From Nonomuraea lactucae (lineage in GTDB: Bacteria > Actinomycetota > Actinomycetes > Streptosporangiales > Streptosporangiaceae), in the NCBI RefSeq assembly GCF_003313395.1, contig NZ_QNFZ01000160.1, positions 1 to 32,077 of the forward strand: a DNA stretch of 32,077 nt. The letters run 5' to 3'. Made by a program: the position numbers and the translations under genes. Of this stretch, positions 5,732-25,249 are shown one piece after another; position 1 is the first letter of the stretch; each line of letters starts with the position of its first letter. Below the pieces are notes generated by a model. It was not told the origin of the DNA, made no database searches, and saw only the letters and a program-made list of their open reading frames with translations.

Positions 5732-7042
5732 GTGCTGACCGCGTTTACCCGAGCGTTCCGGACGCCGGACCTGCGCAACAAGTTGCTCTTCACCTTGGGC
5801 ATCATCGCGCTGTTCCGCCTTGGCTCGGTTCTTCCGACCCCAGGTGTTCACGTAGAAAACCTGGCGGCCTGTTACGACCAGGCCCGTTCCGGTCAATCCG
5901 GCAACATTTACGGGATGGTGCAGCTCTTCAGCGGCGGCGCGCTGCTGAAGCTGTCAGTGTTCGCGCTGGGCATCATGCCGTACATCACGGCCAGCATCAT
6001 TCTTCAGCTGCTGGTCGTCGTGATCCCCCGTCTTGAGGCGCTGAAGAAGGAGGGCCAGGCCGGTCAGGCCAAGATCACGCAGTACACGCGTTATCTGACG
6101 ATCGGCCTCGGTGTCCTCCAGTCCACCGCCTTCATCGCGCTGGCCCGTTCCGGCCAGCTCTTCCCCGACTGCCAGCAGAGCGTGCTGATCAAGCCGGACG
6201 ACATCTTCCAGATCGTCACGATGGTCGTCATCATGACGGCCGGCACCTCCGTGATCATGTGGCTGGGTGAGATCATCACCGACCGCGGCGTCGGCAACGG
6301 CATGTCCATCCTGATCTTCACCTCCGTGGTCTCGGTCTTCCCCTCCGAGCTGGCCAACATCTTCCAGGCGAACAAGTTCACCTTCGGCGTCGTCATGGTG
6401 GTCGGCATCTTCATGATCGCCGCGGTGGTCTTCGTCGAGCAGGCGCAGCGCCGCATCCCCGTGCAGTACGCCAAGCGGATGGTCGGCCGCAGGATGTACG
6501 GCGGCACGTCCACCTACATCCCGCTGAAGGTCAACCAGGCCGGCATCATCCCGGTCATCTTCGCCTCGTCGCTGCTCTACCTGCCGCAGCTGGTGACCTC
6601 GCTGTTCGCCAACGCCGAGAAGCCCAACCCGGTCGTGCAGTGGATCGCGCAGAACCTCGCCACGGGCGACACGCCGATCTACATGATCACGTTCTTCGTG
6701 CTGATCGTGTTCTTCACGTACTTCTACGTGTCCATCACTTTCAACCCCCCTGAAGTCGCCGACAACATGAAGAAGTACGGTGGGTTCATTCCGGGCATCC
6801 GCCCGGGCCGGCCGACGGCTGAATACTTGAACTACGTGCTCACCCGTCTGACCGCGCCCGGCGCGCTCTATCTGGGTCTGATCTCCATGGTCCCGATCGT
6901 CGCGCTGTCGGTGGCCGGTGCGAGCCAGAACTTCCCGTTCGGAGGGACGAGCATTCTGATCATGGTTGGTGTCGGCCTGGACACGGTCAAGCAGATCGAG
7001 AGCCAGCTCCAGCAGCGTAACTACGAAGGTTTCCTGCGGTAG
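5732..7042 (+). CDS. secY: Preprotein translocase channel subunit SecY
   Basis: SecY forms the membrane channel of the general secretion system with SecE and SecG. The 436-residue product has the expected length and about ten hydrophobic segments, beginning [21 protein letters not shown]. Family motifs seen include [17 protein letters not shown] (plug/TM2 region) and [26 protein letters not shown]. The start is GTG 5732 with AGGAGG at 5722-5727. It has a 169-nt structured leader, and its TAG overlaps the GTG of adk by one base. Confidence 0.98.
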
Positions 7043-14165: not shown

Positions 14166-15158
14166 GTGATACGGCTCCGCCTCGACCTCGGGTACGACGG
14201 CACCGACTTCTCAGGGTGGGCCCGCCAGCCCGGGCGGCGTACCGTACAGGGCGAGATCGAGCAGGCGCTCGGCCGGATCCTGCGGCTGCCCGAGCCGCCC
14301 GCGCTGACGGTGGCCGGGCGCACGGACGCCGGTGTGCACGCCCGGGGGCAGGTGGCGCACGTGGACGTCCCGGTGGCGTGCCTGGGCGAGCTCTCCCGCA
14401 GACCGCTCGCGGATGCGCGGGGCCCGCAGGACGGGCGGGACGCGCGGGGCCCGCAGGGCGGCCAGGGTGCGCGGAACGGGGAAGGTGCGCGGAACGGGGA
14501 GGAGGCGCGGGGCGAGCGAGCGCCTCTGGACGTGGATGAGCGGCTCGCTGCGCTCGTGCGGCGGCTGGGCGGGGTTCTGGAGCCGGATGTACGGGTTCAT
14601 CGGGTCTGCGTGGCCTCTGAGGGATTCGACGCGCGTTTCTCCGCTCTGTCCCGCCGCTACGCCTACCGGGTGAGCGACGCGGCGGGAGGCGGCGATCCGC
14701 TGCGGCGGCGCGAGGTGGTGTGGCACAACCGGCCACTCGACCCGGACGCGATGAACGCGGCGGCCACGCGGCTGCTCGGGGAGCACGACTTCGCGGCCTT
14801 CTGCAAGAAGCGCGACGGGGCCACCACCATCAGGGAGCTCCAGCGGCTCTACTGGGAGCGCGACGGCGACGGGCTCCTCGTGGCCACCGTCGTGGCCGAC
14901 GCCTTCTGCCACTCGATGGTCCGGGCGCTGGTGGGAGCCCTGCTGGCGGTGGGCGACGGGCGGCGGCCGGTGGAGTGGCCGGGCCACGTGCTGTCGCGGT
15001 CCGTACGGGACTCCGGGGTGCACGTGGCGCCCGCCCACGGGCTGTGCCTGGAGGAGGTCACCTACCCGCCGGAGGAGGAGCTCGCGGCGCGCGCCGCCGC
15101 GACGCGGCGGGTGCGCACGAAGTCAGCCGTTGGCGATGCGGCGTTCGAGGACGAGTGA
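14166..15158 (+). CDS. truA: tRNA pseudouridine synthase A
   Basis: TruA makes pseudouridine at positions 38-40 of tRNA anticodon arms. The 330-residue product starts at GTG 14166 (GGAGGT at 14155-14160) with [14 protein letters not shown], and has the catalytic Asp54 in GRTDAGVHA. Later blocks include [12 protein letters not shown] and [12 protein letters not shown]. It carries an unusual low-complexity insert of about 38 residues (near residues 80-118) rich in ARG/NGE, made by in-frame tandem repeats. The 3' end overlaps the opposite-strand gene by 36 nt. Confidence 0.96.
14411..14513 (+). repeat. In-frame tandem repeats inside truA
   Basis: Two repeat families lie here. A 27-nt period unit containing GCGCGGGGCCCGCAGG occurs twice (from about 14415 and 14442), and an 18-nt period unit GGTGCGCGGAACGGGGA occurs twice (14466-14482 and 14484-14500). 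Both periods are multiples of three, so the frame is kept and the enzyme gains a hydrophilic loop. Confidence 0.75.
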
Positions 15159-17903
15159 CATCTCGTCCCTGAACGCGTCGCTCACCTTGCCCAGCGTCTT
15201 GTCCTTGGTCGCCGGGGTGTGGCCGTCGGCGTACGTGGCGTAGCTGAACACGATGTAGCGGCCCCACACCAGCCCCGCCGCGTAGCCCCCCGCGATGTGG
15301 ACGCGCTCGCCTCCGCTGCCCGGGGCGCCGGGCAGGGGGCGGAACCAGACATTGCGGCTGAGGTTCTTGGCCCGGTCGGCCCGCAAGGCGGCGTCCCTGG
15401 AGGGGAAGACCGCGATGCCGCTCGTCACGGCGTAGCGGCGCTTGGCGTCCACGTACGTGGCGCGCAGCACCCGGCTGCACTTCTCGTCGCGCAGCGCCTC
15501 CGCGAACGGGCCCGAGGCGGCCTCCTGGCACGTGGACTCGGTGTGCGTCTTGATCTTGGTGAACTCCGCACCCGCCGCCTCGACCTCCTTCTCGGGGAAC
15601 GCCTCGCCGGCCGACATCTTCTTCGGGTCCGTCTCCTGCGTGTCGAGCATGGCCGCGGCGGGGACGCTGGGCGCCAGGGCGGCCGTGGGGGAGGCCGAAC
15701 CCGCCGGAGTGGGCGGCGGCGTCGGTGCCGTGGCGGCCGTCGTCGCACGGGGAACGGGGGCGTTCAGCGACCTGTACGCGAAGAAGCCGCCGGTGGTGAC
15801 TCCCGCCAGCACCAGCACGCCGAGGGTCGCGAGCAGGGCCCGCTTGCCCTTGCCCGGCTGCTCCTGCTGGGCCGTGAGCGGCTGCTGGACCGGGGGCTGC
15901 TTGAACGGGCCCTGCTGGAGTCCCGGGGTGCCGTGCGGCGGCGTGGGAAGATCGAAGGTGGTCAGGGGCTGGGTCGAGCGCTGATGGGGTGGGGGAATGT
16001 CTGGTTTGCCCCAGATGTCGCGGGTGAAGGGGAGCTCGGGGAGCTGCTCCTCCTGACGTTGCTCCTCGGTCTGGGGCGGGGGCGGCCAGGATGTGGACCC
16101 GGGGACGGCGGCCGGGCCTCCTTGAGCTGGGACGGCGGATTGGGCGTTGGCAGGAGGCGTGCCGGTAGGGCCTTGGGGCGTGGCTGCCGTGCCAGGTGGT
16201 GTCGTGCCTGGTGGTGTGGTGCCGAGTGGTGTCGTGCCTGGTGGTGTGGTGCCTAGTGGTGTCGTGTCGGTGGGGGCAGGGTTGGTAGGGGCAGGGTTGG
16301 TAGGGGCCAGGCCGGTGGAAGCAGTGCCGGTAGGGGGCGTGGTCGTGGAGGCCGCGCTGGCGGGGGTCGCTTCCGCGCGTGCCGTTCCGGTGCGTGCCGG
16401 ACCCTCGGGGGCCGGGCCGTCGGGCTGCGGCCCCGGGGAGGCAGCAGAGTGGGCGGCGGGAGGCTGGGAGGTGGCCGGGGGCGGTGACCAGGTGGCGGGC
16501 TTCGGTCCGGTCGGGGCCGGCGACTCGGTGTCGCGAGGCGGGGCGGGCTGCTGGGCCCGCGCGGGAACGGGGGGCCAGACCGGTACGTCGCCGGGCTCGG
16601 CGGGGCGCGGGGTGCCCCTGATCGTGCGGCTGGTGGGGGTCTTCGCGGTATCGGGCGCCATGTCCGTCGGCGTGTGCTTCCCGGACGCCTCGGGGCCGGC
16701 GGCGGGAGGTGCGGGTGTGCGGCCCCCCTCGATGGGGTGACCCTCGATCGGGTGAGGCGCGGTCAGGCCCGGGGCTGCCAGGTTGGTGGCCGCCGGGTGG
16801 GTGACTGCCGTGTCGGGGGATGCCTCGGGCGGTGGCGGGGTCTCCGCGGGCGCCGGGTGGGGAGCCGTCGCGTCCGGGGACTGGGCGCGCGGGGATGATG
16901 TGGCGTCCGGGGGCCGGACCGGCGGAGCCGTCGCGTTGGAGGGCTGGACCGGCGGAGCCGTCGCGTTGGAATGCGGGACGGGCGGCGGGGGCGTGGCGTT
17001 CGGGGGGAGGACCGGTGGGGGTGCCGGGTTCGGCGGGAGGAGGCGCGGGGCCGTCGCGTTCGGGTCGAAGGCGTCGTCGCTGTCCAGGCCGGGTACGGGC
17101 TCGCCCGTCGCGGCGGGCCATGGGGGCATTGAGGGCGTGTCAGCGACCGGGGCCGGCCACACCTGCATGCCCGCCGCCGCGGCCGTGAAGGCGGGCGGTG
17201 GCTCCCAGCGCGGCGCGCCGGGCACGACCGGGCCGCCTGTCCAGGGTTGCGGCCTCTCGACGGGCTCGGGCACCTCCGCCGCCGTGGGAGGAGCGCTACG
17301 CCGCGTCGGAGGAGCACCCTGAGGTGTCGGAGGAGCACCCTGAGGTGTCCAGGGATCGGGGCGCCGTGTTCTGGGGTCGGGCTGCTGCCCGTGGCGGCCG
17401 GGGTGGTTCTCGTCGGCGAACCAGTCGTACGGCGCGGTGTCGTCGGCCGGGACCTCCCACGGATGCGCCGCCTGTCCTGCCCGGCGTCCCGGCCCTCCCG
17501 GAGGCAGGTGAACCCCGGCCGCGGGATCCCCGGCCACGGGTGCCTGGTCGCCGGCCGACAGGGGGCCTTCGGCGCGCCTCGTGGTGGCGGGTCCTGGCCG
17601 GCCGGCATCCGGTGCGGGCGTCGCTGACCCGGCAGACCGCCCGGAGATCGGGGAATCGGGGAAGGGCGCGGACGTCGGGGAATCGGGGAACGGCGGGAAG
17701 GGCGGCGAGGAGTGCGTGCGTCCGGGCAGAGTCTCGTCGGACGGGTGCATGAGGCCGGGCGCCGTGTCGTCGGACGGCACGCCGTACGGTGAGGGGGCGT
17801 GGTGCTCGGCGGGCCGGCCGAAGCTGGGCGGTGGCGTCGCCGCTGCTGCCGAGCCGTCGGCTGGCCCACGATCGTGCTCAGACCTGGGTTCCTGGCCACG
17901 CAT
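15123..17903 (-). CDS. Large Pro-rich type II membrane protein with outer domain, unknown function
   Basis: The 926-residue product has a huge N-terminal part (about residues 1-685) that is Pro/Ala/Thr-rich and probably disordered in the cytoplasm, with short repeats such as [10 protein letters not shown] and QGAPPTP. One membrane segment follows (about 689-710), then an outer domain of roughly 190 residues with Cys pair STC...EKC. That domain is clearly similar to the C-terminal domain of the neighbour at 18007-19209, including the TDP...FP...K start and the C-x16-17-C spacing. I recognise no named family. ATG 17903 is set by a leaderless-type promoter. The stop overlaps truA tail to tail. 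Confidence 0.8.
16190..16270 (-). repeat. 15-bp repeats coding for Thr/Pro/Gly units
   Basis: Units related to GTGGTGTCGTGCCTG recur about five times at a 15-bp period, coding (on the - strand) for alternating TTPLG and TTPPG. They lie within the disordered part of the large membrane protein. A separate 21-bp direct repeat (GGAGCACCCTGAGGTGTC core) occurs twice near 17310-17348. Confidence 0.65.
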
Positions 17904-18006: not shown

Positions 18007-19209
18007 TCAGCTCGCCGGGTTGCCCGTCAGGGAGCGGGCGTCGAGGGCCTTGTAGACGGTCGCCTTGGTGATGTCCTTGGCGACGAGGGTGATCGCCTTC
18101 CGCTCCTTCTTGTCGGGCTTGCTGCCGTCCTTGTTCTGGAACCAGATCATGACCGCGTAGTGGCCGTGCATCCACACGTTGGCGCCGCCACTGCCCGAGC
18201 CGACGAGCTTGGTGACCTCGTCCTTGCCCGCGAGCGGCTTGACGTAGTTGGAGTCACTGCCGGCGGAGGCCACCTTGGTGGCCGCCTTGCTGGACTTGAG
18301 GTTGGCCACGCCGACCGTGCCGATCACCTTGCCCGCCTTGTCGCGGAAGCTGGCGCGGATGAGCTGCGTGCACTTGCCGTCCTTGAGGGCCTTCTGCATC
18401 TTGGTGCCCACCGCGCCGTCGGAGCACTTCTTGACCTTGCTGGTGACGGTCATCTCATAGGCGCGCCCGGAGAAGCTGACCTTCTTCGAGGGGAAGAGCT
18501 CCTTCACCGTGAGCGGCTCGGGGTCCGTCGAGCGCTCGCCCGCGTACGAGAACTCGCCGGGCGGGGCCGACGGCAGGGGCGCGGAGCTGCGGCGGCTTGA
18601 CTCGCCGGCGGTGGGGTCGCTGCCGCCCGACTTGAACATCACGACCAGGGCGGCGACCAGCAGGCCCAGCACAGCGAGGCCGCCGAGCGTGAACCAGAGC
18701 GGCCCTCGCGACCGGTTGCCCTCGCTGTAGGGGCTCCACATCTCGCGGCGTGGTGAGCTCTTCGCGTCCTCGGGTTCTCCGCCCGGCCCTCCCGGCTCGG
18801 TCGCCCCGGGCCCGTCCGCCCCGCCCGGGTTCGGCCCTGCCCCGGTCGCGCTCGGTGCCGCCACGCTCGGTGCTGCCCCGCTCGGTGCTGCCCCGCTCGG
18901 TGCTGCCCCGCTCGGTCCTGCCCCGGTCTGCCCAGGCCCGGTCTGCCCAGGCCCGGTCGGCCCCAGCCCGTACGGCCCAGACCCGCTCGGCGCAGATCTA
19001 TTCGGTCCTGGCCCGCTCGGTCCTGCCCCGGCTGGGCTGAACGCGCCGAACGCGTCGGCTGAAGCGGCGGGCGCGGGGGGCGCGGCCGGATCGGCGCGGT
19101 GCCTGCGCGAACGCCGGGGAGCGCTCTCGGAGGTGTCGTCACCCTTCTTCTTCAGGAAGCGGCGGCCCTTGCTCTCCGTGCTGTTCTCGCGGTCATCGGG
19201 AAAACCCAT
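18007..19209 (-). CDS. Pro/Gly-rich type II membrane protein, paralogue of neighbour
   Basis: The 400-residue product has a cytoplasmic region (1-168) with a Lys/Arg-rich start and GAAPS and GPGQT repeats, a membrane helix (about 169-191, LWFTLGGLAVLGLLVAALVV) and an outer domain of about 190 residues. The outer domain aligns by eye with that of the 926-residue neighbour: TDP, FP, C at the same spacing (KKC...DGKC), the A/S-rich strand region, then Val-x-H/G-Tyr and a W-x-x-Y/N near the end. Function is unknown. ATG 19209 has no ribosome site but a TAnnnT 6 nt upstream. Confidence 0.8.
   Translation of the reverse strand: MGFPDDRENSTESKGRRFLKKKGDDTSESAPRRSRRHRADPAAPPAPAASADAFGAFSPAGAGPSGPGPNRSAPSGSGPYGLGPTGPGQTGPGQTGAGPSGAAPSGAAPSGAAPSVAAPSATGAGPNPGGADGPGATEPGGPGGEPEDAKSSPRREMWSPYSEGNRSRGPLWFTLGGLAVLGLLVAALVVMFKSGGSDPTAGESSRRSSAPLPSAPPGEFSYAGERSTDPEPLTVKELFPSKKVSFSGRAYEMTVTSKVKKCSDGAVGTKMQKALKDGKCTQLIRASFRDKAGKVIGTVGVANLKSSKAATKVASAGSDSNYVKPLAGKDEVTKLVGSGSGGANVWMHGHYAVMIWFQNKDGSKPDKKERKAITLVAKDITKATVYKALDARSLTGNPAS
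18850..18960 (-). repeat. 15-bp tandem repeats coding for Gly/Ala/Pro/Ser units
   Basis: GCTGCCCCGCTCGGT-type units repeat about four times (18855-18915), followed by two CCGGTCTGCCCAGGC units. They code for GAAPS and GPGQT on the - strand. Repeat number is likely to vary between strains, as in the neighbour gene. Confidence 0.7.
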
Positions 19210-20761: not shown

Positions 20762-21283
20762 GTGGCTGAGCCCACCGGTGTCGAGACGGCCGTCGAGGCC
20801 GAGCTGGAGGACTACTCCGGCGAGGATTTCCCGTCCGAGTACACCACCGAATCCGCTGCCAGCGCTGACGCTCCCGTGCGCAAGCCCGTCACCACGGGCA
20901 ACTCGTACGGCACCGGCCGCCGCAAGGAGGCGATCGCCCGGGTGCGCATCGTCCCCGGCACCGGCAAGTGGACGATCAACGGTCGTTCGCTTGACGTCTA
21001 CTTCCCCAACAAGGTCCACCAGCAGATCGTCAACGAGCCGTTCGTGGTGCTCGGCGCCGAGGAGGCGTTCGACGTCATCGCGCGCATCGACGGCGGCGGC
21101 GTGACCGGCCAGGCGGGCGCGCTCCGCATGGGCCTGTCCCGCGCGCTGGCGATCCTGGACGTCGAGGTCAACCGCCCGCCGCTGAAGAAGGCCGGCTTCC
21201 TCACCCGTGACGCCCGCGCCACGGAGCGGAAGAAGTACGGCCTCAAGAAGGCCCGCAAGGCTCCGCAGTACAGCAAGCGCTGA
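20762..21283 (+). CDS. rpsI: 30S ribosomal protein S9
   Basis: S9 has a C-terminal tail that reaches P-site tRNA. The 173-residue product starts at GTG 20762 (AGAGGAG upstream) and has an acidic N-terminal extension of about 45 residues typical of actinobacteria. The core begins at [20 protein letters not shown] and ends with the usual [12 protein letters not shown]. Its TGA is one base from the TTG start of glmM, so the two are tightly linked. Confidence 0.98.
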
Positions 21284-21284
21284 G

Positions 21285-22631
21285 TTGGCGCGCCTTTTCG
21301 GCACCGACGGGGTACGTGGGGTCGCGGGACGCGACCTCACCGCCGAGCTTGCCATGGACCTGGCGGTCTCGGCGGCTCACGTCCTCGGCGATGCAGGCGC
21401 GTTCGCCGCTACCGGACGCCGTCCGATAGCGGTCGTGGGCCGGGACCCGCGTGCCTCGGGAGAGTTCCTCGAGGCCGCCGTGGTCGCCGGCCTCGCGTCG
21501 TCCGGAGTGGATGTGCTGCGCCTCGGCGTGCTGCCCACCCCGGCCGTCGCCCACCTCACCGCCGCGCTCGGCGCCGATCTCGGCGTCATGCTGTCGGCCT
21601 CGCACAACCCCGCGCCGGACAACGGCATCAAGTTCCTGGCCCGTGGCGGCTTCAAGCTGTCCGACGCGGTCGAGGACGAGATCGAGCGGCGGCTGGGCGA
21701 GGACTGGACCTTCCCCGTCGGCTCGGCCGTCGGCCGGGTGCGCGACGCGTACGGTGAGGCAGACCGTTACATCAGCCACGTGCTGTCCACGGCGCGGGGC
21801 GCGCTCGACGGCCTGCACATCGTCGTCGACTGCGCGCACGGGGCCGCCCACATGGTGGCGCCCGAGGCGCTGCTGCGCGCCGGGGCCAGGGTCGAGGCGA
21901 TCGGCGCCAGGCCCGACGGCCTCAACATCAACGACGGCTACGGCTCCACCCACCTCGACAAGCTGCGGCAGGTCGTGGTCTCGCGCGGCGCCGACGCCGG
22001 CATCGCCTACGACGGCGACGCCGACCGCTGCCTGGCGGTCGACCACACCGGCGCGGACGTCGACGGCGACCAGATCATGGCGATCCTGGCCGCCGCCATG
22101 CACGCCGAGGGCGCGCTGGCCAAGGAGACCGTGGTCGCGACCGTGATGTCCAACCTGGGCTTCAAGCTGGCCATGCGCGAGGCGGGCATCCAGGTGGTGG
22201 AGACCGCGGTGGGCGACCGCTACGTGCTCGAACGGATGAAGGCCGACGGCTACAACCTGGGCGGCGAGCAGTCCGGCCACGTCATCATGCTCGACCACGC
22301 CACCACCGGAGACGGCCTGCTGACCTCGCTCCACCTCATGTCGGTGGTGGCGGCCTCGGGCCGGTCGCTCCGGGAGCTGGCGTCGATCATGACCCCGCTG
22401 CCGCAGGTCCTGATCAACGTCACGGACGTCGACAAGGGCAAGGCCAGGTCGGCGGAGCTCGCGACGGCGGTGGCCGAGGCCGAGACGGAGCTGGGCGACA
22501 CGGGCCGGGTCCTGATCCGGCCGAGCGGCACGGAGCCGATGATCCGCGTCATGGTCGAGGCCTCCTCGGAGGGCCAGGCCACCAAGGTGGCCGAACACCT
22601 CGCCGACGTGGTGCGCGCCGTCTGCGTCTGA
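21285..22631 (+). CDS. glmM: Phosphoglucosamine mutase
   Basis: GlmM converts glucosamine-6-phosphate to glucosamine-1-phosphate for peptidoglycan precursor synthesis. From TTG 21285 the product is 448 residues, [18 protein letters not shown], of usual length. The phosphoserine is S106 in [14 protein letters not shown]; the Mg site is DGDADRC; the sugar loop is GGEQSGH; and the phosphate loop is [12 protein letters not shown]. The frame is open from 21207 but that part lies inside rpsI. Only one base separates it from rpsI and there is no clear ribosome site, so coupling is likely. Confidence 0.97.
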
Positions 22632-22643
22632 CGCTGCTCTTCA

Positions 22644-22671
22644 GGGGTACGGCACGCGGGTGCCGTACCCC
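22644..22671. terminator. Bidirectional terminator between glmM and the PIN gene
   Basis: GGGGTACGGCAC (22644-22655) pairs perfectly with GTGCCGTACCCC (22660-22671), loop GCGG. It lies 12 nt after glmM and 5 nt after the end of the opposite-strand PIN gene, so one element can serve both convergent units. Confidence 0.85.
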
Positions 22672-22676
22672 GTCCA

Positions 22677-23144
22677 TCACGAATGAGATCTCAGCTGGTC
22701 GTCGAGTGTCCAAATGCCTACCTCTACGCCGGTGACGCGGCTTCGGTACAGCTCTCGCTCGGCGAGGATACAAAGATCGCCCAAGCCGAGTTTGCTCATG
22801 GCATGATCTGACAGGGGTATTCCGGTCCCCGCACCCGCGATGAGTGAGCGCAGGAAATCAGCGCCCCAGACCACTGTGTGGAGCACCCAAGGCGCTCGAC
22901 CGTCGATGACGATTTCGAGCAGCTCGGAGAGCTTCCCTGCGTAATCGCGGCGTAGCCGGCCGTCAGGTAGCTGGGCGATGTGGTTTCCGGCTTCGATGAC
23001 CGCGGTGACAGGCAGGATCAGGCGGCAACCGCGCTTGTCCTCGGTAAGTTGTCGTGTCACCGCGTCACGGTCTTGGTTCTTACCGGGAATGTCGAGGAGG
23101 TTGCACAGGACCGAGGTGTCGACGAACTCGACCTTGCGGCTCAC
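22677..23144 (-). CDS. PIN-like nuclease domain protein
   Basis: The 155-residue product looks like a single PIN domain: FVDTSVLCNLLDI at the start with D9, then E51 in VIEAGN, D123 in GLGDLCIL and D148 or D149 in WTLDDQL, matching the four acidic metal-binding positions of VapC-type RNases. The GTG start at 23144 overlaps the stop of the ATPase gene (GTGA), so it should be made only with the ATPase. No antitoxin-like gene is next to it. Function as an ATPase-controlled nuclease is inferred. Base composition is lower in GC than its neighbours. Confidence 0.72.
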   Translation of the reverse strand: MSRKVEFVDTSVLCNLLDIPGKNQDRDAVTRQLTEDKRGCRLILPVTAVIEAGNHIAQLPDGRLRRDYAGKLSELLEIVIDGRAPWVLHTVVWGADFLRSLIAGAGTGIPLSDHAMSKLGLGDLCILAERELYRSRVTGVEVGIWTLDDQLRSHS

Positions 23145-24490
23145 CGTGGGCCGATCCCCATGAGGTGATCGAAGGCGGTGAAGTCCTGCTCCCCGGCCGG
23201 TCTCTGGTCCAGTAGTCCGGAGGTCACCACGGTGCCCAGATCGCCTTGAGCCATGAGGCTCGGGTAGCCCTCTACTTCTGGGAGTCTCGTCAGCCTTGAT
23301 ATTCCGGTAGCACGGTCTCGGCTGCTGACCACGACGTGGTCGTGGTCTTTGGGCGACAGTGCGGAGAGCAGGGCGGGGCTGTGCGTCGTGAAGACGACCT
23401 GCGCGGCGATCGTCTCCTTCACCAGCGACAAGAGCTGAGAGGCCTGCGCGGGATGCAGGCCGTTCTCGAGCTCTTCGATCACCAGCATGGGCGATCCGGT
23501 TTCCCCGGGGAGGTCGCGTCGGCTCAGGTCCAGATCCTGTCCCTGGCGGAGCAGCGTCGTGGCGATGGCCATGAACCGCAGGAGGCCGTCGCTCATCTCT
23601 CGAGCCGGTGTGGTCGCGGTGCCTTCTCTGAGGGCCAGCATCACATCGCCGAGATCCGACCGGATGAGTTCGATACCGGAAACATCATGATCCACCAGCG
23701 CTTGGGTATGGCGGACCAGTTTTCGGAAGCTCTGCGGATCCAGCTCCCGCATGTGACTGATGACGGCCGAGAGATTCTCGGCTGTCCTGCGGAGACGGAT
23801 GTCCCGGCCCGGCGTGTACTGGCGCATGAGGTGCGGGACGGGATCCAGATGGAATACGCCGCGCAGGGCGCTGAGCACGTCGTGAGCCGCTGCTGTGATT
23901 TGGCGCTGGACCTCGTCCGTCCCCTCCAGGCGGAGCGGTAGTTGGGCGGTGACCAACCGAGAGGAGCGAAAGGTTGCTCGGGGACCGCGGCCGGGCCGGC
24001 CGTTGTACCAGCTCGCCTCAATCGTGCCTGCTCCGGCCGACACGCTCTTGGCGTCAAGCAAGGCGTGCATACTATTTCTTTTCGGATCCTGGGTTTTCCT
24101 GCGTTTTCCGGAGAAGCCGGTGAGGGTTTCGCGGACGATCTCCGGTTCGGGCCCCACGCGAACGGTGACATCGAACTCGAGCCAGAAATAGCCCTCCCCT
24201 GCGGCCTCGGGGTTCACCACGGTGCATCCCAGCTTGAACTGATCCTCACCATGTGGCGGGCAGCCCGCGATACCGCCACGCAGTGGGCCCTCGTCGCCGC
24301 GCCTGCTGTCGAGCGCGTCCGCGAGGTCACCACCTTCGGCAAGGCGGGACAGGACGTCGAGCCCGTCGAGCGCGTTGGACTTACCGCTGCTGTTGCGGCC
24401 GATGAGGATGGTCATGTCGTTCAGCGGCAGCACAGCGTCGCGGAAGGTCTTGAACTCGGTCAGGCGCAGCTCGGTCAGGCGCGCGGACAT
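23141..24490 (-). CDS. AAA/SMC-like ATPase (AAA_21, OLD-like)
   Basis: The 449-residue product from ATG 24490 has Walker A GRNSSGKS (31-38), an ABC/SMC-like signature MSDGLLRFMAIATTLL, Walker B LVIEE (336-340) and a THSP motif (369-372), as in AAA_21/RecF-type ATPases. It ends about 80 residues after THSP, with no TOPRIM domain, unlike OLD nucleases. Its effector is thus probably the coupled PIN protein. Stretches are only about 52% GC (24061-24120) against about 72% nearby, which suggests transfer. The frame opens at TTG 24511, but a -10 element sits 6 nt before the ATG. Confidence 0.82.
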   Translation of the reverse strand: MSARLTELRLTEFKTFRDAVLPLNDMTILIGRNSSGKSNALDGLDVLSRLAEGGDLADALDSRRGDEGPLRGGIAGCPPHGEDQFKLGCTVVNPEAAGEGYFWLEFDVTVRVGPEPEIVRETLTGFSGKRRKTQDPKRNSMHALLDAKSVSAGAGTIEASWYNGRPGRGPRATFRSSRLVTAQLPLRLEGTDEVQRQITAAAHDVLSALRGVFHLDPVPHLMRQYTPGRDIRLRRTAENLSAVISHMRELDPQSFRKLVRHTQALVDHDVSGIELIRSDLGDVMLALREGTATTPAREMSDGLLRFMAIATTLLRQGQDLDLSRRDLPGETGSPMLVIEELENGLHPAQASQLLSLVKETIAAQVVFTTHSPALLSALSPKDHDHVVVSSRDRATGISRLTRLPEVEGYPSLMAQGDLGTVVTSGLLDQRPAGEQDFTAFDHLMGIGPR

Positions 24491-24496
24491 AGGTAA

Positions 24497-24502
24497 ACAG
24501 TA
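24497..24502 (-). promoter_or_regulatory. -10 element 6 nt before the AAA ATPase start
   Basis: TACTGT on the - strand is followed by TTACCT and the ATG, predicting a leaderless mRNA for the ATPase-PIN pair. I see no -35 match. This favours ATG 24490 as the start and gives the pair its own transcript, apart from the ABC genes that end at 24530. Confidence 0.5.
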
Positions 24503-24529
24503 CACGGGCAAGGTCGCGCCGACCGGTGG

Positions 24530-25249
24530 CTACTCATCACCCGTGAGGGAGTAGGCGCGCAGGCGGCGGCCGGCGAGGAAGACGGCGGCCACAGTCGCGA
24601 TGACCAGGGCCGGAACGGCGAAGCCGAGCGTCACGTCGGCCTGCAGGAACGGCGAGGTGGAGATCTGGTCGGCGATCGACTGGGCCCACTGCTGGATCGA
24701 GAACTTGCGTGCGCCCTGGACGAAGCCGCCGACGAGGCTCTCCCAGACCAGGGCGTAGATGATGCCGACGGTCACCGCGTGGCGGGTGACGACGCCGAGC
24801 AGCAGGAAGACCGCGGCGTAGGCGACGCCCGCCACCAGGGCCCCCAGGGCGAACCCGGAGGCGATGCCGTCCTCGGTGCCCACCAGCAGCCAGGCCGCGA
24901 GGTAGGTCGGTACGGCGGCGAAGACGGCCAGCAGCGAGGCCGCGACCAGGAACTTGGTCTGGGCGATGACCGGGCGGGAGATCGGCTTGGACATCAGGTG
25001 GATGATCGTGCCGTCGTCGATCTCGGGGGCGATCACGCCCGTGCCGGCGATGAGGCCGAGCAGGGGCAGCATGGTCCCGATGGCGAACTTGTCCATCAGG
25101 AGCATGGCCGAGCGCTGGTCGGCGCTGCCGGCCAGGCGCAGGAGCAGGGCCAGGCCGAGCAGGGCGAGCGGCAGCAGGAGGAGCAGGACGATCCTGCGCC
25201 GGCCGAGCAGCGCCCGGTAGGTGATGCCCGCCACGACGGTGTTCATCAT
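24530..25249 (-). CDS. ABC-2 type transporter permease
   Basis: The 239-residue product has about six membrane segments (starting RRRIVLLLLLPLALLGLALLL) and the ABC-2 permease pattern APEIDDGTIIHLMSKPISR. Its start ATG overlaps the stop of the upstream ATPase in an ATGA junction, so it should pair with that ATPase. Substrate is unknown. It is the last of four overlapping ABC genes. Confidence 0.87.
   Translation of the reverse strand: MMNTVVAGITYRALLGRRRIVLLLLLPLALLGLALLLRLAGSADQRSAMLLMDKFAIGTMLPLLGLIAGTGVIAPEIDDGTIIHLMSKPISRPVIAQTKFLVAASLLAVFAAVPTYLAAWLLVGTEDGIASGFALGALVAGVAYAAVFLLLGVVTRHAVTVGIIYALVWESLVGGFVQGARKFSIQQWAQSIADQISTSPFLQADVTLGFAVPALVIATVAAVFLAGRRLRAYSLTGDE

Follow-up and report, generated by a model that had tools for sequence, protein, structure and literature searches.

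PDC-M07 beside glmM in Nonomuraea lactucae: an ABC-type ATPase and a PIN-domain protein as a candidate abortive defence pair

Described ATPase-nuclease systems and the identity of the pair

WonAB and pairs such as PD-T4-4 combine an ABC ATPase that lacks a TOPRIM domain with a small, separately encoded nuclease, and the same architecture is found in the two genes considered here, A and B (Table 1), from a 32,077-nucleotide stretch of Nonomuraea lactucae DNA (contig NZ_QNFZ01000160.1; the whole stretch is called the window). WonAB of V. cholerae WASA-1 consists of an OLD-type ABC ATPase and a small nuclease in one operon, causes translation arrest and is toxic through its nuclease only when the ATPase is active, and its authors suggest that such paired ABC-ATPase sensors form a broader family (PMC12137116). 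Judged by architecture, WonAB is the closest worked-out analogue of the pair, although WonB is a PD-(D/E)xK nuclease and B a predicted PIN-domain protein. PARIS likewise joins an AAA_21/AAA_15-type ATPase, AriA, to a separate effector gene, but the AriB effector is a TOPRIM protein (PMC10568477). A matches the AriA model PDLC02980 (E 1.9e-41) over the same span and profile length as the generic Pfam AAA_21, and no PARIS entry was seen among the 50 matches listed for the structure model of A, which excludes nothing; membership in PARIS was rejected because B, with its PIN fold, is no TOPRIM effector and matches PDC-M07B models alone in PADLOC up to E 1. Septu and retron PtuA-PtuB pairs differ in their nuclease, PtuB, which is of the HNH type; B has a PIN fold and gave no HNH match in Pfam up to E 1, and this assignment was also rejected. 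Type II VapBC modules share with B the VapC fold and its acidic quartet, but the gene directly upstream of B encodes an ABC ATPase rather than a small VapB antitoxin in 56 of 56 homologous loci. Classes 1-3 of OLD nucleases, which carry ATPase and TOPRIM in one protein, were set aside as well, since no TOPRIM family occurs among the eight Pfam matches of A (up to E 1), as first proposed, and the chain stops 79 residues beyond its H-loop histidine, H370.

PIN domains themselves are no strangers to defence. A PIN nuclease is required for phage defence in DS-3 and DS-5 (DefensePredictor), which differ from the present pair in that DS-3 is a single protein and DS-5 pairs its PIN with a protein of DUF5830 and an AcrIF4-like domain (PMC13092281). 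PIN endoRNases are named among the nucleases around an ABC-ATPase-DndE core in phosphorothioation (Dnd) neighbourhoods, but these are DNA-modification operons, and a dedicated two-gene ATPase-PIN unit is not seen in the excerpted source (PMC10853773). PIN domains fused to ATPase domains are found in mobile elements (PMC8297831).

Both proteins match, nearly full length, the PDC-M07 (phage defence candidate) models of PADLOC-DB 2.0.0. A matches PDC-M07A (PDLC04389, E 1.5e-179) over residues 2-446 of 449 and profile positions 3-442 of 443, and B matches PDC-M07B (PDLC04394, E 9e-53) over residues 3-154 of 155. The genes are adjacent on one strand, as are those of all 56 homologous loci, and no tested feature sets the pair apart from PDC-M07. 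A preliminary description, made from the sequence alone, had proposed a coupled ATPase and PIN-like nuclease for which it knew no named system; its biology was right, yet the pair was already named. The PDC-M07 model entries bear no description, and PDC entries are described as unpublished or putative candidates (PMC11811056, PMC12988326). In the literature searched, neither the term PDC-M07 nor any paper joining 'PIN domain' and 'AAA_21' with 'anti-phage' or 'phage' was found; the preprint of Payne and others (2024) and Krishnan and others (2020), which lay outside that search, may hold a prior description. We consider it likely, though well short of certain, that the pair acts as an ATPase-gated PIN ribonuclease, an abortive anti-phage (or anti-plasmid) switch.

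The two proteins and their linkage

A is an AAA_21 protein (Pfam E 3.6e-37) and an ABC-type ATPase head with intact motifs, namely Walker A K37 (lysine in 12 of 12 aligned A rows), signature S300-D-G, Walker B E339 and H-loop H370. Its predicted structure resembles Rad50, SMC and PtuA entries of the PDB. The predicted structure of B is a PIN fold whose nearest PIN matches are VapC toxins, and the preliminary description's refuting case of a structure prediction without such a fold is ruled out. The preliminary description had placed the PIN acids at D9, E51, D123 and D148 or D149. Among 55 aligned homologues D9 and E51 are each kept in 54, D123 in 53 and D148 in all 55, with the full quartet in 52; position 149 is aspartate in just 6, so that D148 is the fourth acid and D149 is not. 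The model and the alignment together make B a PIN-domain protein whose four acidic positions are all intact. By sequence the fold is faint: PIN did not match the window's B in Pfam, where the sole match, DnaB_bind (E 0.0019, below its cut-off), was taken as chance, while across the 55 homologues PIN (PF01850) matched 13 and PIN_12 matched 7, with best E-values of 0.0014 and 2.1e-4. No convincing PDB relative of B was found by sequence, the single match having an E-value of 0.51. One or two of the four acids are replaced in three homologues (L025, L045 and L069); L069 carries V in place of E51 and S in place of D123, and its nuclease activity may be lost or changed.

B is probably an RNA-cutting, VapC-like enzyme. 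PIN folds can also serve DNA nucleases, and an alternative is ATPase-guided DNA restriction, in which A would sense foreign DNA ends or structures through its Rad50/SMC-like head and B would nick DNA. The resemblance of A to Rad50, SMC and PtuA and the position of the pair inside a type I restriction operon on some plasmids speak for this scheme. VapC toxins, however, are RNases, one of the nearest matches of B (VapC20) is titled a sarcin-ricin-loop cleaving toxin, and no DNA-binding domain was seen in A or B above the Pfam cut-off, leaving DNA restriction with a very slim probability.

The two genes are tightly linked. Among 56 distinct B sequences of near-full length (covering the model from position 9 or earlier to 145 or later; B served to find most loci and A to find L131-L146), A lies upstream of every one, within -13 to +21 nt in 54, and the preliminary description's refuting case, genes rarely found together, is ruled out. 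The -4 spacing of the window, whose GTGA overlap suggests translational coupling, recurs in 14 of the 56. One contig scan found A directly upstream of B at 13 of 13 loci, and A precedes B in 10 of 10 plasmid records; A is missing or reduced only where the B copy is partial or the contig ends (L064, L066, L067, L086, L087/L092 and L093). In the order, A was found at E up to 1e-60 in 16 of 298 sampled genomes, all within Streptosporangiaceae, the window's family, and B or its remains adjoin A in each, B being unbroken in 13. In the genus, 7 of 55 genomes have the pair, relics included. Sampling by phylum gave 3 of 396 genomes for that of the window (the window's own and two fragmentary), 15 of 398 for Pseudomonadota, the phylum of a Methylibium genome (up to nine candidates scored per genome), and 19 of 194 for that of a cyanobacterium. 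The window's B had no match at E 1e-5 in 50,697 phage records, and a pattern scan of viral contigs gave one relative. The pair recurs together in distant bacteria and on plasmids.

Some of these plasmids offer a defence-like setting. On Photobacterium pAQU1 and on Vibrio plasmids the pair sits within a type I restriction operon, with hsdS on one side and hsdR on the other, and on the Lactococcus plasmid pUC06D hsdS lies ~5 kb upstream. A RelE/ParE-type gene pair closely follows A-B on an Acinetobacter plasmid, as does a TumE gene on a plasmid from a cyanobacterium, and another plasmid carries tumA ~7 kb away. The preliminary description had suggested testing for enrichment near defence genes, and while the plasmid settings agree with it, the neighbour test gave only weak enrichment. 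That test compared 105 genes around 21 of 28 pair loci (seven, L165, L169, L170, L172, L183, L186 and L187, were dropped when a simple open reading frame caller lost B) with an equal number of control genes, for which 21 of 27 hand-chosen, non-random stretches of those genomes were used. At E 1e-20 in PADLOC, the AbiLi, AriA and mad3 models each matched 4 of 105 genes near the pair and none among the best 25 of 74 control families, PD-T4-6 and mad6 kinase models matched two in both sets, and the control stretches also had DruE, MkoA and Cas12f matches. At 1e-8 in Pfam, AAA_21 matched 6 of 105 genes near the pair versus at most 1 of 105 in controls, among the matches listed. Separately, a second, weaker A-type ATPase lies near the pair in four cyanobacterial loci (L070, L072, L083 and L089), and the 105 scanned neighbours include two DUF4276 genes. 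Both findings suggest that OLD-type ATPase systems of different kinds cluster together.

In three genomes of the family B is broken beside an intact A, by a stop in G019 and by frameshifts in G037 and G058. The reverse state, with A interrupted and B present, occurs outside the family at L019 and L047 of the 56 loci, the draft of G019 is just 63% complete, and errors of assembly are possible; for these reasons an early loss of B is kept as a hint alone, not as proof of B toxicity. Such breaks would suit a toxin-antitoxin-like addiction or stress module in which A is the antitoxin holding a VapC-like toxin B and plasmid or locus maintenance is the main function, as would the VapC fold and the plasmid copies with RelE/ParE-type, TumE or tumA genes near them. 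The partner of B at all 56 loci is not a VapB-type antitoxin, however, both genes have low median dN/dS (the ratio of nonsynonymous to synonymous substitution rates; A 0.19, B 0.18; dS, at ~1.3, is close to saturation), and in WonAB the need for the ATPase in toxicity argues against sequestration in that system (PMC12137116). We regard an addiction module as unlikely.

Probable regulatory elements and history at the glmM site

Table 1. Features of the pair and its flanks in the window
Feature	Position	Strand	Remarks
glmM	21207..22631	+	constant neighbour marking the site
12-bp perfect hairpin	22644..22671		flanked by the stop codons of the converging genes glmM (22631) and B (22677)
gene B, PIN-domain protein, PDC-M07B	22677..23144	-	GTG start, 155 aa; D9, E51, D123, D148
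GTGA 4-bp overlap, A stop/B start	23141..23144	-	sequence
gene A, ABC/AAA_21 ATPase, PDC-M07A	23141..24490	-	ATG start, 449 aa; motifs, Pfam, PADLOC
-10-like TACTGT	24497..24502	-	ends 6 nt before A ATG; position conserved in family
membrane protein gene, ABC-transporter permease by eye	24530..25249	-	upstream neighbour; abuts glmM in genomes without the pair

The coordinates, strand and overlap of A and B in the preliminary description were all correct, and its proposal of a dedicated promoter-like element and a terminator common to the pair and glmM is supported by what follows. Of 17 family members scored, 16 (one a relic) have a TANNNT hexamer 6-7 nt ahead of the ATG of A, versus 6 of 628 ATG triplets of the window. 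The Streptosporangium locus L014 was scored from the ATG at 6700, where tblastn begins. In G058, the single failure, scoring had started at an incorrect codon further downstream; its sequence has TACCGT 6 nt before the ATG. Such spacing fits leaderless transcripts in actinobacteria, and the A transcript may be one of them. Since A starts 39 nt past the stop of the same-strand upstream gene, read-through into A is also possible. The hairpin between the convergent stops, with folding energies of -27.2 and -25.9 kcal/mol on the two strands, is likely a bidirectional terminator; the five empty-site relatives viewed fold strong hairpins at the glmM 3' side too. A G/C-rich inverted repeat directly before the -10 of A in L134, L136, L137, L138 and L014 could be either a terminator of the upstream gene or an operator. 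No Rfam match was found in 22500-24700 (E up to 1). Elsewhere in the window, two adjacent minus-strand genes (15123-17903 and 18007-19209) with long proline/alanine-rich N-terminal parts and C-terminal parts that look alike by eye are perhaps tandem paralogues of unknown role.

The neighbour on the B side is presumably glmM, a name that follows the preliminary description. Its 3' side was read in 38 genomes of the genus, the window's included. Seven hold the pair or its remains in the same spot and orientation (the window, G016, G019 and G037, with relics in G011, G012 and G021), 20 have the permease gene within ~200 bp of glmM, that is, an empty site, 10 carry something else (in G030 the sequence read did not include the permease), and in G031 the contig ended. 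Other inserts include NACHT ATPases in G003 and G009 (L113 and L114; Pfam E 1.2e-12 and 5.1e-16) and a CHAT-domain protein at the glmM-permease junction of G013 (L123; Pfam E 2.8e-21), none with a PADLOC match up to E 0.001. The junction (22631-24530 in the window) is variable in the genus and may be an unlisted hotspot for immune-type genes. Of the 16 A loci in the family, nine, from four genera, show glmM within the short flanking stretch, where it was not seen in the others; in Microbispora (L015) it lies ~4 kb from A.

The preliminary description held that strictly vertical, housekeeping-like inheritance would refute a defence module. A agrees with glmM, as their identities correlate (rho 0.62, over 36 non-independent pairs) and their trees group the taxa alike, but the B tree does not fully agree, placing the window and G016 inside the group of another genus, g5 (support 0.86-0.88). 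The window's A is no closer to G016 (identity 0.70) than to g5 members (0.69-0.70), and neither is its B (78% and 79%), whereas its glmM is (0.86 versus 0.75 for g5). Strict vertical descent was not upheld for B on these grounds, and exchange between genera at the glmM site is possible. Between A and B, identities correlate as well (rho 0.68; 15 family members, with two genomes entered twice). The patchiness of the pair in the genus and its erosion are not housekeeping-like. We read the pair, from these sequence comparisons, as an old resident of the site that would have been repeatedly lost and possibly exchanged between genera. In the window, G+C content at third codon positions is 0.79 for A and 0.72 for B, while 13 other genes span 0.85-0.99. 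In further family members, where the pair genes alone were measured, A ranges over 0.68-0.85 and B over 0.72-0.89.

A chromosomal RNA-processing or stress-response pair, no longer or never phage-related and mainly vertically inherited in the family, would account for the agreement of the A and glmM trees, the recurrent glmM flank and the conserved promoter-like element. It fits poorly with a gene found in so few genomes of the order, with 20 empty sites and three relics among the 38 genus genomes and with relatives on plasmids and in a restriction operon, and we assign it a low probability.

A proposed mechanism and its meaning

Several points weigh against an abortive defence role. The literature, searched without the source preprint, yielded no results on phages, toxicity or RNA cleavage for any member of PDC-M07, and the substrate of B is not readable from a PIN fold. 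Structures were predicted for single proteins, and an A-B complex is an inference. To the weak enrichment of defence genes is added the position of the window's pair beside housekeeping genes rather than in a defence island; together with an A tree that follows glmM (the two trees, of nine taxa, recover the same groups, one glmM node having a support of 0.15), this makes a cell-stress role possible.

For the ATPase-gated switch that we favour, we carry over the logic of WonAB with a PIN effector. A would act as an ATP-bound, head-to-head dimer that holds or positions B, and an infection cue would shift its ATPase state. B would then cleave host and/or phage RNA (tRNA, rRNA or mRNA), translation would halt, and the infected cell would thereby release no phage. 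Of this scheme, the two components with their motifs, their linkage and the promoter-like element are shown, and sensing, complex formation, RNA target, cell arrest and phage trigger are all proposed. More tentatively, with confidence a little short of even, PDC-M07 could be a distinct type of abortive defence in which an SMC/Rad50-like ABC ATPase sensor licenses, and does not merely sequester, a VapC-like PIN ribonuclease. One widespread ATPase chassis would then carry interchangeable nucleases (TOPRIM, HNH, PD-(D/E)xK and PIN), and in the window's family the pair would be a standing innate-immune unit with a fixed chromosomal site and a dedicated leaderless promoter.

A named but mechanism-less database candidate hereby gains a predicted PIN effector fold, active-site residues, an operon logic, a promoter-like element and a natural history, which make the mechanism of PDC-M07 directly testable. 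The locus also indicates that a defence-type ATPase pair can remain over long periods at one fixed site among housekeeping genes, away from defence islands, a kind of site at which guilt-by-association searches do not look.
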